From: Bacteroidota bacterium
GTDB taxonomy: Bacteria; Bacteroidota; Bacteroidia; 2-12-FULL-35-15
Reading direction: 5' to 3'
DNA length: 64,000 nucleotides
Assembly (NCBI GenBank): GCA_025963725.1
Contig: JAOQAE010000003.1
Coordinates: 310,001-374,000 of the forward strand
Numbering within the stretch: position 1 is the first letter of the stretch; each line of letters begins with the position of its first letter. The position numbers and the translations under genes are program-made. Shown piece after piece: positions 43,213 to 49,170 of the stretch. Below the pieces are notes generated by a model. It worked only from the letters and a program-made list of their open reading frames with translations. It did no database searches and had not been told where the DNA came from.

Positions 43213-45036
43213 TTACTTTTCAAGCTGGGCGATCCGGATCCCGGCAGTTTTTGCATCGGTCTTTAGCTGAAGGATATAGACCCCATTTTCAAGGTTAAGC
43301 GCTTTCATGTTGAAATTGAATTCGTAATGCCCGTTCTCCTGGATCCCTTTCGGGAGGGAATACACCTTTTGCCCTATTGTATTGTATAATTCAAAGGCCA
43401 CATTGGTTCTTTCCGGTATATAATAGCTGATGGTGGTGTTCTCGGTGACAGGGTTCGGATACACCGAATAGCCGAGTGAAGCGGCAACAGACGATTCGAT
43501 GCCTACCGCCGTGATGTTCAGGATCTGCGTGGTGGTATCGCTGCCGCAGGGGCTGCTCACAATTAAGGTTACATTGTAAACGCCGTTAGCGGTGTATACA
43601 TGCGAAGGGTTCTGGTTGGTGGAAGATCCGCCATCGCCAAAATACCACTGGAAGGTATAAGTAGTGCTTGCTGTATTGTAAAACTGGACATTGGGCGCTC
43701 CGGTATGTGTAAAGGAAGCAACCGGGGCCGGGGTTTGCTGTGTAAGCGTGATCGGTGCCGCCGCCCAGTTGTTGGTTTCATCGGCCTCGAGGAAATTGTT
43801 ATCGGGGTCGGTGATGGAAACAATGTAGTAATCACCATTGCAAACGCCTGTGAGGTCGATCGACATGCCGGATAAGCCCTCGCTGTAAATATCGAGGTTC
43901 CCTACATATATTCCCTGGTCGGTACCGCAGCCGCTCACCATTCCGAAAGGAGCATTCGGCACATCCGCCATTGTCATCACCGGGCCGTAGTTGCCATCCC
44001 TGCAATAGCCGTAATCGCTGGTGCAGTCGCCAAGGTTGATGAGGCAGAAAGACACTTTGGAGCCTGTAGCTACGATCGGCCATGTGGTTGCATCGGGATT
44101 GGAAGTGGCGCGGCGCAGGGTGAATTCAGCCCAGTTATCCACATGCACGTGCCCGTGCGAAGGGTGGTAGCTCATTACCCCGTTTGTTAAGGTGTCGTGG
44201 GAAGTGATCACAGATCCGCTCTTGTGATAAATGGTCTGCTTTAATTTTTGCTTCGGGTAACTTCCATCCGGACAAATAGGTGTTGAGCAGGCTACGGTAA
44301 CGGTATCGCACCAGCAGGAGCTGGAACCGTGGATCTCCATCGGGCCCCAGCCGATATTCGGTGTTGCATTGCTTAAGGTGATCAGTCCCGGTGATTCTGT
44401 GTGCTGGTTCTGGATGATAAGCGCGGAGGCTGTCATGTCGGGCAGCAGGTCGCAGTTGCTTGTTCCATCCGGACAAAGACAACCAAGCCCGTTGGAGGAG
44501 CTGCATGGGCCGCTGCTGGATCCGCCGCCGGTCCCATGCGGAGGATTCGGCCCGAAGGTAACAGAGAATGATAATAAGCTTCCGGCATCGGCAGGCACCT
44601 CATCGGTGATGCAGATGCTCCAGGTGCCGTTCGGGTTCTGATTATTGTTTACGCCATTAATATCGCCATTCGGAACATACGTCCCGGGAAACGGTGCTGC
44701 TCCTGCGCCAATCAGTCCGCTTGCGCCGTTCATTGCAAAGCAGGTGTTGGTGTAGTTATCGCCGCTGCCGCCGTTGTTGCTGGAAAGAAGGATGTACGTG
44801 CCATCGGGCGCCCTGAGCCTGATCTTAAGATCACCATCCCAGGTGTGGGTGAGGTTCACACAAACCTGTGCAACACCGAATGCGGTATCGATCTGCGCGA
44901 GCAAACCGCTGACCGAAAGCGGGAAGCAAACTTCCGTATTGTTATCGGGGATAGGGCCGCCAAGGGTAGTGGTGAATGTCTGCGCGCTCAGCAAAAAGGG
45001 AGTGCAGAGCAAAATAGAGAGTAAGAAGTTTTTCAT
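43213..45036 (-). CDS. Secreted lysyl-oxidase-like protein with P-domain, PKD and T9SS sorting domain
   Basis: 607 residues with signal peptide 1-18. Residues 20-165 form a proprotein-convertase P-domain (LTHTWDGDLKIRL, GTWSICITDE). Residues 195-430 resemble lysyl oxidase: the copper motif HPSHGHVHVDNWAEF (H291, H294, H296, H298), then CLINLGDC and IDLTGVCNGDYYIVS...EADETNNW, as in the animal enzyme family. A PKD domain (about 440-515, YFGDGGSSTNQNPSHVY) and a type A sorting domain (YSVYPNPVTE...GVYILQLKTD) complete it. Lysyl oxidases oxidise lysine side chains to aldehydes and can cross-link proteins. Whether this one is active (quinone cofactor residues) cannot be judged. It is downstream of purF on the same strand. 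Confidence 0.87.
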   Translation of the reverse strand: MKNFLLSILLCTPFLLSAQTFTTTLGGPIPDNNTEVCFPLSVSGLLAQIDTAFGVAQVCVNLTHTWDGDLKIRLRAPDGTYILLSSNNGGSGDNYTNTCFAMNGASGLIGAGAAPFPGTYVPNGDINGVNNNQNPNGTWSICITDEVPADAGSLLSFSVTFGPNPPHGTGGGSSSGPCSSSNGLGCLCPDGTSNCDLLPDMTASALIIQNQHTESPGLITLSNATPNIGWGPMEIHGSSSCWCDTVTVACSTPICPDGSYPKQKLKQTIYHKSGSVITSHDTLTNGVMSYHPSHGHVHVDNWAEFTLRRATSNPDATTWPIVATGSKVSFCLINLGDCTSDYGYCRDGNYGPVMTMADVPNAPFGMVSGCGTDQGIYVGNLDIYSEGLSGMSIDLTGVCNGDYYIVSITDPDNNFLEADETNNWAAAPITLTQQTPAPVASFTHTGAPNVQFYNTASTTYTFQWYFGDGGSSTNQNPSHVYTANGVYNVTLIVSSPCGSDTTTQILNITAVGIESSVAASLGYSVYPNPVTENTTISYYIPERTNVAFELYNTIGQKVYSLPKGIQENGHYEFNFNMKALNLENGVYILQLKTDAKTAGIRIAQLEK

Positions 45037-45089: not shown

Positions 45090-46991
45090 TTAATACGCCC
45101 TTACGTTCTTTCCTTCCATATAGTTGATGAACGATTTGTTCACCACCTTATTTCCGCCGGGAGTCGGGTAATTCCCTGTAAAGTACCAGTCGCCGCTATG
45201 GTTCGGGATGGCGTTATGCAGGCCTTCGATGGACTGGTAAATGATCTCCACCTCTGCATTGATGCTTTCGGGGCGAAGCAGCTCCGCGATCTTTTTCGAG
45301 ATCTGCTCTGCCGTGAAGAGGTCGTATATTTCTTTCACCACATTGGTGATCTGTTCTTTCGGTAATTCTTCCTGGGCCTTTGCTTTTTCATACAATTCAT
45401 CGAGCAGGTTCTCTTTGAAATTATCTTTCAGCAAATGGATGGCTGCCTGGAAAGCAATGAAATCGCCCAGCTTGGCCATGTCGATCCCGTAACAATCGGG
45501 ATAACGGATCTGCGGTGCAGAGGAAACGATGACAATTTTTTTAGGCCCGAGGCGATCGAGGATCCTTAAAATACTTTGCTTTAATGTTGTTCCGCGAACG
45601 ATGGAATCATCGAGCACCACGAGGTTATCGGTTCCTTCCCTCACGCATCCGTAGGTGGTATCGTATACGTGCGCCACCATATCATCGCGCTTGGAATCGT
45701 TGGTAATAAAGGTTCTCAGCTTCGCATCCTTGATCGCGATCTTTTCGATGCGCGGATGTACGGAGAGGATGTTGCTCAGCTCAGGCTCGCTTACTTTGCT
45801 TCCCATTTGCAGGATCTTATGACGCTTCACGGTATTGTTGTAATGGTGAAGGCCTTCAATGAAGCCGCCGAAGGCAACCTCTGCGGTATTTGGAATATAG
45901 GAGAATACTGTGTTTTCAAGGTCGTAATCAACCGATTTTAAAACGGCCGGACAAAGCTGGCTTCCCAGCTTCTGGCGCTCACGGTAAATATCGGCATCGC
46001 TTCCGCGTGAAAAGTAAATGCGCTCGAAGGAGCATGCCGTTTTTTCCAGCGGCTTGTTGATCTCGAATTCGCCGAAGCTGCCGTTCTTTTTAATGATCAG
46101 CGCATGGCCGGGTGTAAGCTCTTTTACCTCTTCGATGGGAACGTTGAATGCCGTTTGAATGACCGGGCGCTCGGATGTTACTACCACCACCTCATCATCG
46201 CTGTAATAGAATACCGGGCGGATCCCGTTCGGGTCGCGCAATACAAAGGCATCACCATGTCCGAACAAGCCGGCCATAGCATATCCTCCATCCCACTTCT
46301 TGCTTGCATCTTTTAAAATGCGCTGCACATCCAGCTGCTCTGCAATAAGGGAAGATATCTCGAAATTATCGTGTCCTTCTTTTTTGAAATGACGGAACAG
46401 TCGCTCATTTTCCTCATCGAGGAAATGCCCGATCTTTTCCATCACAGTTACCGTATCTGCTTTTTCTTTGGGATGCTGACCGAGGTCGACCAGCTGCTGA
46501 AACAGCTCATCCACATTGGTAAGGTTGAAATTACCGGCAACAACGAGGTTGCGGGTCATCCAGTTGTTCTGGCGAAGGAAAGGGTGGCAGTTCTCCACTG
46601 AGTTGCCGCCGTATGTGGCATAGCGCAAATGCCCGAGAAATAATTCACCGGTATAGGCCATGTTCTTTTTCAGCCATGCAGCATCCTGCAGTCGGTCGGG
46701 ATTTTTCTTGTAAAGGTCTTCGAACTTTCCGTTGATCTTCGCAAAGATCTCCTTGATAGCTCCGCTGCCCAGCGCCCTGTTGCGGCTGATGTACCTGGTG
46801 CCTGCCGCTACATCGAACTTGATGTTGGCAATTCCGGCGCCGTCCTGTCCGCGGTTGTGCTGCTTCTCCATGAGCAGGTACATCTTGTTGACCCCGTAAA
46901 GGGCTGTACCATATTTTTTGATGTAATAATCCAATGGTTTTAGTAAGCGTACTACCGCTATTCCGCACTCATGTTTTATTGCATCGCTCAT
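45090..46991 (-). CDS. purF: Amidophosphoribosyltransferase (long Bacteroidota form)
   Basis: Catalyses the first committed step of purine synthesis: PRPP plus glutamine gives phosphoribosylamine. The ATG at 46991 gives 633 residues, longer than E. coli PurF (505). The nucleophile is C9 in HECGIAVVRL, exposed after removal of a short propeptide. Class II glutaminase motifs include QHNRGQDGAG and GHLRYATYGG. The PRPP loop is LDDSIVRGTTLKQS in the C-terminal transferase domain. Insertions in the glutaminase half (HFLDEENERLFRHFKKEG) account for extra length, as in other Bacteroidota. A -7 box (47030-47037) lies upstream. It could be the second, divergent PurF-like paralogue that many of these genomes carry. 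Confidence 0.87.
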   Translation of the reverse strand: MSDAIKHECGIAVVRLLKPLDYYIKKYGTALYGVNKMYLLMEKQHNRGQDGAGIANIKFDVAAGTRYISRNRALGSGAIKEIFAKINGKFEDLYKKNPDRLQDAAWLKKNMAYTGELFLGHLRYATYGGNSVENCHPFLRQNNWMTRNLVVAGNFNLTNVDELFQQLVDLGQHPKEKADTVTVMEKIGHFLDEENERLFRHFKKEGHDNFEISSLIAEQLDVQRILKDASKKWDGGYAMAGLFGHGDAFVLRDPNGIRPVFYYSDDEVVVVTSERPVIQTAFNVPIEEVKELTPGHALIIKKNGSFGEFEINKPLEKTACSFERIYFSRGSDADIYRERQKLGSQLCPAVLKSVDYDLENTVFSYIPNTAEVAFGGFIEGLHHYNNTVKRHKILQMGSKVSEPELSNILSVHPRIEKIAIKDAKLRTFITNDSKRDDMVAHVYDTTYGCVREGTDNLVVLDDSIVRGTTLKQSILRILDRLGPKKIVIVSSAPQIRYPDCYGIDMAKLGDFIAFQAAIHLLKDNFKENLLDELYEKAKAQEELPKEQITNVVKEIYDLFTAEQISKKIAELLRPESINAEVEIIYQSIEGLHNAIPNHSGDWYFTGNYPTPGGNKVVNKSFINYMEGKNVRAY

Positions 46992-47029
46992 GTTTTTCTG
47001 GATTTTCCGGGGGTGAATACTTATTAACA

Positions 47030-47037
47030 CAAATTTA
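47030..47037 (-). promoter_or_regulatory. Putative -7 box for purF
   Basis: TAAATTTG on the reverse strand is an exact TAnnTTTG match 38 bases before the ATG, giving a leader near 33 bases. It lies downstream of the candidate RNA's terminator, so purF and that RNA are separate transcripts. No purine riboswitch-like fold was seen in the short leader. Confidence 0.5.
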
Positions 47038-47093
47038 CATAATTTATTTCGAAATGCCCTGTAAATTAGACCGACTGGGGATTTTTAAAGACC

Positions 47094-47281
47094 AAAAAAA
47101 CAAATCCCGAAGAGCTTGTCACAACTTCGGGATTTTGGATAAAACTAAACATGAAACACTGTTGTGCTACTCCTTCACAACAACAAGCTTTTAAGCATAA
47201 AGGATGGTTTATAGACAAACCAATAAGAGCATTATGCTGAGACAAAGAACATAACTCTCTGCGCATTATGCAAACACAAAT
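47094..47281 (-). ncRNA. Candidate structured small RNA (about 190 nt) upstream of purF
   Basis: In a 600-base divergent gap, the reverse strand shows an exact -7 box (47287-47294) followed by four hairpins. Hairpin 1 (47229-47271) pairs GCATAATGC with a second GCATAATGC, with one A-A mismatch, plus an inner GAGA/TCTC. Hairpin 2 (47205-47222) is TGGTTT/AAACCA. Hairpin 3 (47160-47182) is TGTTGTG/CACAACA with loop AAGGAGTAG. Hairpin 4 (47102-47135) has an 11-bp stem followed by GTTTTTTT, a strong intrinsic terminator. AGCTTGT (47185-47191) can also pair with the hairpin 4 loop (ACAAGCT). No gene lies on this strand upstream, so the terminator needs another explanation. I do not recognise a known RNA family; length is 6S-like but the fold is not clearly so. 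Confidence 0.5.
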
Positions 47282-47286
47282 TAGGT

Positions 47287-47294
47287 CAAAAATA
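47287..47294 (-). promoter_or_regulatory. Putative -7 box for the candidate small RNA
   Basis: TATTTTTG on the reverse strand matches TAnnTTTG exactly and would start a transcript near 47281. No -33 element was recognised. Confidence 0.4.
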
Positions 47295-47572
47295 AGATTT
47301 CGGAGGGCGATATTGACCGTTTGCCACGCGGAGGGACAGAATCCATAAAAACCTTTGATGATAACGCCTTCAGGAGAAACTTATGCATGAATAAGAACCC
47401 GGAATACACCGGAAAAAGTAAGTTTTCGGACGAAGAACCGGGACGAAAAAAAAGTGATTTTTTTTCCGTGCCGCTCCGTTTATTTCTAAAAAGCGCCCAC
47501 TTATTCCTCAAGAGCCTTTTTCGACTATTTCTCAATAGAAGCTTGAAAATTAGGTTTTTAAATACTGAATTC
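47295..47572. other. Gene-free divergent spacer, nothing recognised
   Basis: The rest of the gap between purF and the helical-repeat gene is A-rich on the plus strand near 47440-47470. It contains only short open frames without recognisable protein features. No repeat family of this window occurs in it. Confidence 0.5.
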
Positions 47573-47580
47573 TATATTTG
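47573..47580 (+). promoter_or_regulatory. Putative -7 box for the helical-repeat gene
   Basis: TATATTTG is an exact TAnnTTTG match 31 bases before the ATG at 47611. The upstream region is T-rich but no clear -33 TTG at proper spacing was found. Confidence 0.5.
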
Positions 47581-47610
47581 TGGGCTCAAAATCTGCACGA
47601 AGGACACGCC

Positions 47611-49170
47611 ATGACAAAAGACCTGCATACACTGATCAAATCGCTTACGTCGAGCGAAAAGGGCTATGTGAAAAAGCATTCTATCGTGCATGTGATCGGC
47701 GACCAGAACAAATACATCAAGCTTTTTGATGCCATTGACAAGCAAAAGGAGTATGATGAAAAAGAGATCATCCAGAAATTCGCGGATGATCCCATCCTGA
47801 ATAATTTTTCCGTAGCCAAAAAGTATTTGTTCCGCTTTATTTTAAAATGCCTGGAATCATACAATACCAATGCGAAGACGGAGCTGCGGAGCATCCTGAA
47901 CCATATCGAGATCCTCCACAATAAGAACCTGCCCGGCGTAGCGAAGAAAATGCTTACAAAAGCAAAAGCCACCGCACAGCAGTATGAGCTGTATGAGTTC
48001 ATGGAGGAGATCATTGACTGGGAAATTGTTTTTATAGTGGAGGAAGCGAACTCTCAAAATTACCTGGAGCTGGTGAATAAATATTTCGGGGAGCTGTACG
48101 ATTCGATCGAAAAGAAAAAAACCATTATTGGCTACAAGCACCTGTACCAGAAGCTTCGCGCAAAGGCTTTGTACATGGGCCTTCCGAGGAATGATGAGGA
48201 TGTGCTTGAATTTCAGAAAATAGCAGACCAGGTGAGCAAGAATGACACAAACCTGCTCTCCACCTTTAATGCGCAATTTTACCGCAACCTGATGCAGGCG
48301 AATTTCCTTTTCATAAGCAACGAGCATAAGCAGGCGAATGAGCTGATGGAAAAGAATGTGAAGCTGATGGAAGAGTTCCCGCACATGATCGAGCTGCGGC
48401 CGGCGATCTACCTTGGAATGCTGCGCAACAAAGCGGTGAACGAGCTTTCGCTGATGCGCTATAAGCCGCTGTTCGACACTATCCGAAAGATGGATGCCTT
48501 TGTGGAGAAGTACGGGCAGATGAACCGCTATTTTGAAGTGATGGCTGAAAACCTGAAGCTGTTCGTGTACATTCCAACAGGGCAGTTTACCGAAGCGCTG
48601 AAGATCGCCGAAAAGCTGGATGTGCTTTACAAGCAGCTGCCCCCTACAAAAACGCTGACCAAGGAAAGGCAGCTGCAGCATTATGCATTTGCATATATCT
48701 ACATTGCGCTGGAAGATTACAAGCTGGCCAACCAGCACATCAATTCGTTGCTGAACAACCATGAATTCGACATCCGCAGCGACCTGTTCTGCTTCGGGCA
48801 GATCCTGAGCCTCATCATTCATTTTGAGCTGGGGAACGTGGAGCTGCTCGATTACCGCGCGCGCTCCACCTACAACCTTTTGCTCAAGCGTAATCACTTA
48901 TACGAGTTCGAAAAACAGATCATCGTGTTCCTGAAGAACACAAAGAGCATGACACGCAAATCGCCTGAAATAAGGCAGGCATTCATTGAGCTGAAGGAAA
49001 GCATTGAACGCATCACGGAAAACAACAAGCTGGAAAAAAATGCGCTGAGCCTGTTCGACCTGATCTCCTGGCTGGAAAGCAAGATCGAAGGGAAGAGCTT
49101 TATCGAGATCAAGCAGGAAAAGTTCAATCAGCTGCTTTCCTCCGAAGGCGCGAATGCGCACATGCATTAA
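47611..49170 (+). CDS. Large alpha-helical (TPR-like) cytosolic protein of unknown function
   Basis: 519 residues from the ATG at 47611; no signal peptide or membrane segment. The N-terminal about 90 residues (LIKSLTSSEKGYVKKHS, KKYLFRFILKCLESYN) look like a compact helical domain found in a Bacteroidota-specific family. The remainder is a solenoid of paired helices resembling degenerate TPRs (AFAYIYIALEDYKLANQHINSLLNN). It is highly charged, with many Lys and Glu. Probably a scaffold or protein-interaction factor; I cannot name a partner. It has its own -7 box and is convergent with the AraC gene, ending one base from it. Confidence 0.8.
   Translation: MTKDLHTLIKSLTSSEKGYVKKHSIVHVIGDQNKYIKLFDAIDKQKEYDEKEIIQKFADDPILNNFSVAKKYLFRFILKCLESYNTNAKTELRSILNHIEILHNKNLPGVAKKMLTKAKATAQQYELYEFMEEIIDWEIVFIVEEANSQNYLELVNKYFGELYDSIEKKKTIIGYKHLYQKLRAKALYMGLPRNDEDVLEFQKIADQVSKNDTNLLSTFNAQFYRNLMQANFLFISNEHKQANELMEKNVKLMEEFPHMIELRPAIYLGMLRNKAVNELSLMRYKPLFDTIRKMDAFVEKYGQMNRYFEVMAENLKLFVYIPTGQFTEALKIAEKLDVLYKQLPPTKTLTKERQLQHYAFAYIYIALEDYKLANQHINSLLNNHEFDIRSDLFCFGQILSLIIHFELGNVELLDYRARSTYNLLLKRNHLYEFEKQIIVFLKNTKSMTRKSPEIRQAFIELKESIERITENNKLEKNALSLFDLISWLESKIEGKSFIEIKQEKFNQLLSSEGANAHMH

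Follow-up and report, generated by a model that had tools for sequence, protein, structure and literature searches.

The window, as we call the whole 64,000-nt stretch of DNA analyzed here, comes from a 4.79-Mb genome; its order is represented by 36 searchable genomes, all belonging to one genus. A purF-like gene on the minus strand and a divergent gene on the plus strand flank an intergenic gap at 46992-47610, which carries a predicted small RNA (sRNA) gene on the minus strand. The features of the locus are as follows.

45090-46991, minus strand: purF-like amidophosphoribosyltransferase gene (ATG at 46991); context, outside the RNA
47030-47037, minus strand: -7 box TAAATTTG that belongs to the purF-like gene itself and lies past the RNA terminator
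47094-47238, minus strand: predicted sRNA transcript of about 145 nt, which starts with the 5' hairpin, 5 nt past the -7 box, and ends at the terminator
47094-47101, minus strand: terminator tail GTTTTTTT, read in the sequence
47102-47135, minus strand: intrinsic terminator stem-loop AAATCCCGAAG/CTTCGGGATTT, read in the sequence, with an A-U to G-C double change in relative L017
47113-47119, minus strand: ACAAGCU in the terminator loop, the predicted 3' strand of a pseudoknot and pairing partner of AGCUUGU
47134-47160, minus strand: near-invariant linker AGUGUUUCAUGUUUAGUUUUAUCC..., a candidate antisense seed by its conservation and its complementarity to Bacteroidota start regions
47161-47181, minus strand: loop hairpin GUUGUG-AAGGAGUAG-CACAAC, stem invariant in 17 of 17 genomes
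47183-47189, minus strand: AGCUUGU, the predicted 5' strand of the pseudoknot, paired in 17 of 17 genomes; in relatives L016 and L017 both partners of two pairs have changed
47194-47238, minus strand: 5' hairpin of variable sequence, foldable in 17 of 17 genomes (z -2.4 to -6.7 per sequence)
47243-47250, minus strand: -7 box, which reads nAYATTTG in 14 relatives (CAYATTTG in most of them) and is degenerate in the window (GTTCTTTG)
47271-47274, minus strand: -33 box TTTG; the window copy has a 20-nt spacing and the weaker -7 box
47289-47304, minus strand: conserved upstream element TCCGAAATCTTATTTT from the 17-genome alignment, approximately TTCGAARTCTTATTTT in the relatives
47611-49170, plus strand: divergent neighbour encoding a distant BT2802-family protein; context

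The purF-like protein has 633 aa and scores 134 bits against TIGR01134. Because this is far under the purF equivalog cut-off of 350, the protein may be a PurF paralogue instead of PurF itself. The divergent neighbour scores 155 bits against NF058569, the BT2802 ribose-utilisation family (cut-off 550). It adjoins purF in RNA-bearing genomes only; in RNA-less genomes that have purF it is absent from that position, and six of the 19 RNA-less genomes hold homologues of it at just ~26-32% identity. An exact -7 box, TATATTTG, lies ahead of this gene at 47573-47580 on the plus strand, and the nearby stretch 47550-47579 has a 30-nt match of 93% identity in L018, a genome from a different family. Beyond the purF-like gene, 43213-45036 on the minus strand encodes a 607-aa protein that combines a P-domain, a lysyl oxidase-like stretch, PKD domains and a type IX secretion tail.

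A search of the gap against 59 genomes detected a segment spanning roughly 47096-47192 in 16 relatives, all of the same genus; those with named records are metagenome-assembled Bacteroidota. Across the resulting 17 genomes, identity to the window is 87-98% over a 92-nt core, whereas it is only 28-50% at the fourfold-degenerate sites of the purF-like gene, with most values near 0.30-0.35. Given this difference, the core is under strong selection. The core does not look coding: the linker and the terminator loop contain 1-nt insertions and deletions, and the spacer lengths also vary. Small open frames do cross the region, but such indels, together with near-identity at all core positions, make a short peptide gene or a functionless chance terminator the least credible of the explanations considered here.

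The alignment upstream of the core revealed a conserved promoter, GTTTG-N20-CAYATTTG, and a scan placed TTG or TTTG 19-20 nt (19 once) from a -7-like box in 15 of the 17 genomes. As the Flavobacterium promoter consensus TAnnTTTG is placed at -12 to -5 (PMC9723704), we set the sRNA start 5 nt past the -7 box. In 16 genomes the first base predicted in this way opens the stem of the 5' hairpin; in the remaining one it precedes the first paired base by one position. Given that the -7 box of the window is degenerate and that relative L003 has no clear promoter, the start in these two genomes rests on the alignment. The first-pass annotation had expected a transcript of about 190 nt, which comparison with the 16 relatives shortens to about 145 nt, from approximately 47238 to 47094. 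It had also relied on an ‘exact -7 box’, TATTTTTG (47287-47294); this string lies upstream of the transcript, matches TAnnTTTG in one of the 17 genomes, and is, in the window genome alone, the end of the longer conserved upstream element. In most relatives the element keeps a conserved TCTTATTTT at a near-fixed spacing of 23-24 nt from the -33 box, and the 16-nt element is possibly an activator or UP site. A weaker copy with three mismatches, which is at chance level, occurs at 47415-47430.

The nested fold predicted for the 145-nt RNA consists of the 5' hairpin, the hairpin with the AAGGAG loop and the terminator. Compared with dinucleotide shuffles, the folding of the originally proposed 191-nt stretch gave a z of -3.44, and that of the corrected 145-nt transcript is less striking, at -2.08. 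Several of the earlier structural readings agree with the comparison. The AAGGAG-loop hairpin can be read directly at 47161-47181, as can the 11-bp terminator stem (47102-47112 with 47125-47135, followed by the tail GTTTTTTT), and both are kept in the 16 relatives, as a check of hairpin conservation had called for. The loop hairpin, stem included, is invariant apart from one loop base. Instead of the four hairpins plus terminator first described, we find three hairpins, counting the terminator, and a pseudoknot. The proposed first hairpin, with two direct copies of GCATAATGC as its arms, falls outside the RNA because its first copy lies in the promoter spacer and is missing from the relatives; the second copy instead pairs with TTATGC on its own 3' side. 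The 5' hairpin extends up to the AAAA ahead of the core, and its covariation within the main group was not above that of shuffles.

The complementarity noted at first between AGCTTGT and the terminator loop (ACAAGCT) is supported by the comparison: it is kept in all 17 genomes and covaries in one clade. In the 17-sequence alignment, 99.5% of the cells in the stated helices are paired. Three pairs, two in the pseudoknot and one in the terminator, show double changes, as against a mean of 0.6 in shuffles and 0-1 in slid controls. The two pseudoknot changes, G-C to A-U and U-A to G-U, both occur in L016 and L017; because these two are sisters in the purF tree, we count them as one event.

The model R1 scored 101-121 bits in 17 of the 36 genomes of the genus, with no second strong match in any of them, which indicates a single copy; the other 19 genomes gave no strong match. 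Five weak matches of 27-37 bits (L053, L055-L058) look like ordinary terminators and were rejected. Outside the genus, R1 found no match in an even class sample (395 genomes) or a phylum sample (395 genomes), where few candidates were scored per genome and weak matches can be lost. The loop hairpin was also unmatched in viral contigs. The genomes that carry the RNA fall into two clades of the purF tree, which requires two changes; therefore, one gain and one loss explain the pattern as well as two gains.

A search of the whole window against Rfam returned nothing at the gathering score, and at E<=10 there were chance-level matches alone. Among these, MicC reached 18 bits (gathering score 90), and the NsiR4 match, which lies outside the RNA, had an E of 0.83. 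A literature search for the core strings also gave no match. The description of this element as an undescribed structured small RNA thus holds up well: it is a minus-strand gene without an Rfam family above the gathering score in the covariance-model check, and its hairpins are conserved with compensatory changes. We consider it very probable that the sRNA gene is real. Comparison of the genomes supports a conserved RNA gene that has its own promoter and terminator, is independent of purF and holds a pseudoknot pairing.

What this RNA does is a matter of interpretation, and we regard as most likely a new family of independent, terminator-ended sRNAs that would base-pair with mRNAs near start codons. 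As a stand-alone regulatory RNA gene, it would be transcribed from a housekeeping-type Bacteroidota promoter, with the start near 47238 and the end near 47094, where the intrinsic terminator lies. The variable-sequence 5' hairpin probably protects the RNA end, the near-invariant hairpin would expose AAGGAGUAG while the near-invariant linker stays unpaired, and the terminator loop would pair back to AGCUUGU to give a compact 3' domain. Acting in trans, the linker (UUUCAUGUUUAGUUUUAU) would block initiation by base-pairing to mRNAs at A-rich translation-start regions, as GibS and FopS do. We infer that the RNA is expressed, and that it acts in trans through this seed to repress its targets.

The linker is complementary to AUAAAACUAAACAUGAAA, a sequence similar to the start regions of Bacteroidota genes. 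When 40 near-matches were sampled from the RNA-bearing genomes, most proved to begin real-looking open frames for MK... proteins. Such near-matches are not commoner than those of a reversed control pattern, nor commoner than in RNA-less genomes. No 22-mer target with up to three mismatches was found except the gene itself, and beyond one pair no target gene recurred among the sampled near-matches. The linker duplex energy to the 39 start regions of the window beats most shuffled linkers marginally (20 of 300 were as good), and its mean is the same for start regions as for coding sequence. Because these enrichment tests are negative or marginal, the proposed action at start regions is drawn from the precedent of GibS and FopS (PMC11697453). 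The RNA probably regulates other messages, and that it does so by pairing near their start codons is a tentative proposal, to which we give slightly less than an even chance.

The strongest competitor is that the RNA binds or sequesters a protein, not mRNA, with the invariant loop AAGGAGUAG as the binding site. The whole hairpin is invariant save one loop base, which exceeds what a simple antisense seed needs. Complements of the loop (GTGCTACTCCTTCAC, one mismatch allowed) gave a few scattered matches besides the gene itself. CsrA sites follow the pattern A-N-G-G-A, and the loop fits this pattern. However, a CsrA gene was found in none of the 36 genomes of the genus, although the positive control worked, and each RNA carries a single such loop. 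A CsrA sponge of the CsrB/RsmZ type, which would offer several GGA loops instead of one, is thus unlikely in the absence of CsrA from these genomes, and no other candidate protein is known. Overall, we consider protein binding unlikely.

A variant of the sRNA reading was also considered. RNAalifold, which draws no pseudoknots, favours a different pairing among the invariant letters, AAAGCU:AGUUUU and UGUGAA:UUUCAU, and a switch is therefore possible. In such a new family, a terminator loop held by the pseudoknot would compete with the alternative fold, so that the RNA would change between a closed form and one that exposes the linker matching start codons or the GGAG loop. We judge this elaboration to be somewhat less probable than protein binding.

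The position of the RNA might instead suggest a purF leader, namely an attenuator or riboswitch whose terminator would govern read-through into purF, with purines or PRPP as the signal. The gap was at first described as having no reverse-strand gene. This is correct upstream of the terminator, where there is no minus-strand gene that could own it, but the next gene downstream, the purF-like one, is on the minus strand as well, and the RNA therefore precedes a codirectional gene. All but one of the 17 RNA-bearing genomes have the RNA between the same two genes, oriented as purF, and the terminator with the possible alternative fold would suit such a leader. Nevertheless, a promoter of the TAAATTTG type stands shortly before the purF ATG in RNA-bearing and RNA-less genomes alike, the distance from terminator to ATG ranges over 100-302 nt, and 19 genomes of the genus have no strong RNA match. 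In addition, a gene for a secreted protein, not purF, follows the RNA in one genome (G007; locus L015, G007:C89), the sole such case. On the strength of purF's own promoter and this exception, we rejected the leader, which we regard as very improbable; comparison indicates an RNA independent of purF, whose own promoter and terminator appear to serve no protein gene.

Still less probable is a very divergent 6S RNA regulating RNA polymerase. The RNA is stand-alone, structured and near a purine gene, and the 6S-Flavo model had no match elsewhere in the genus, but its control was silent everywhere too, which makes that search uninformative. The predicted fold has three separate hairpins and no long rod with a central bubble, and, unlike a housekeeping RNA, the present RNA was not found in half of the genus.

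A single-copy RNA whose loop and linker are near-invariant while silent sites approach saturation looks like an important regulator, and its promoter, ends, structure and pattern of presence and absence give precise testable predictions; the alignment could also seed a new Rfam family. To our knowledge, few Bacteroidota sRNAs have been characterised beyond Bacteroides and Flavobacterium.

Among the known systems, 6S-Flavo RNA (RF01685) is likewise a structured non-coding RNA of Bacteroidota, but the present RNA has no Rfam match and a different architecture. Rfp18 of Flavobacterium, which is needed for protease expression, resembles it as an independent, structured and clade-conserved sRNA (PMC9723704). 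By description the two differ in that R1 matches are confined to the genus of the window across the class and phylum samples, and in that the present RNA has no known protease link. GibS and FopS of Bacteroides thetaiotaomicron, also Bacteroidota sRNAs, carry seeds that pair with translation-start regions, and FopS has a canonical promoter, a seed in its 5' part, a length of 65-70 nt and multiple copies (PMC11697453). Membership of the GibS/FopS family would call for that family's R1 seed in the 5' part; the 5' end of the present RNA is a hairpin of variable sequence, and by description it is set apart from FopS by an internal candidate seed, a length of about 145 nt, a single copy and a predicted pseudoknot to the terminator loop.
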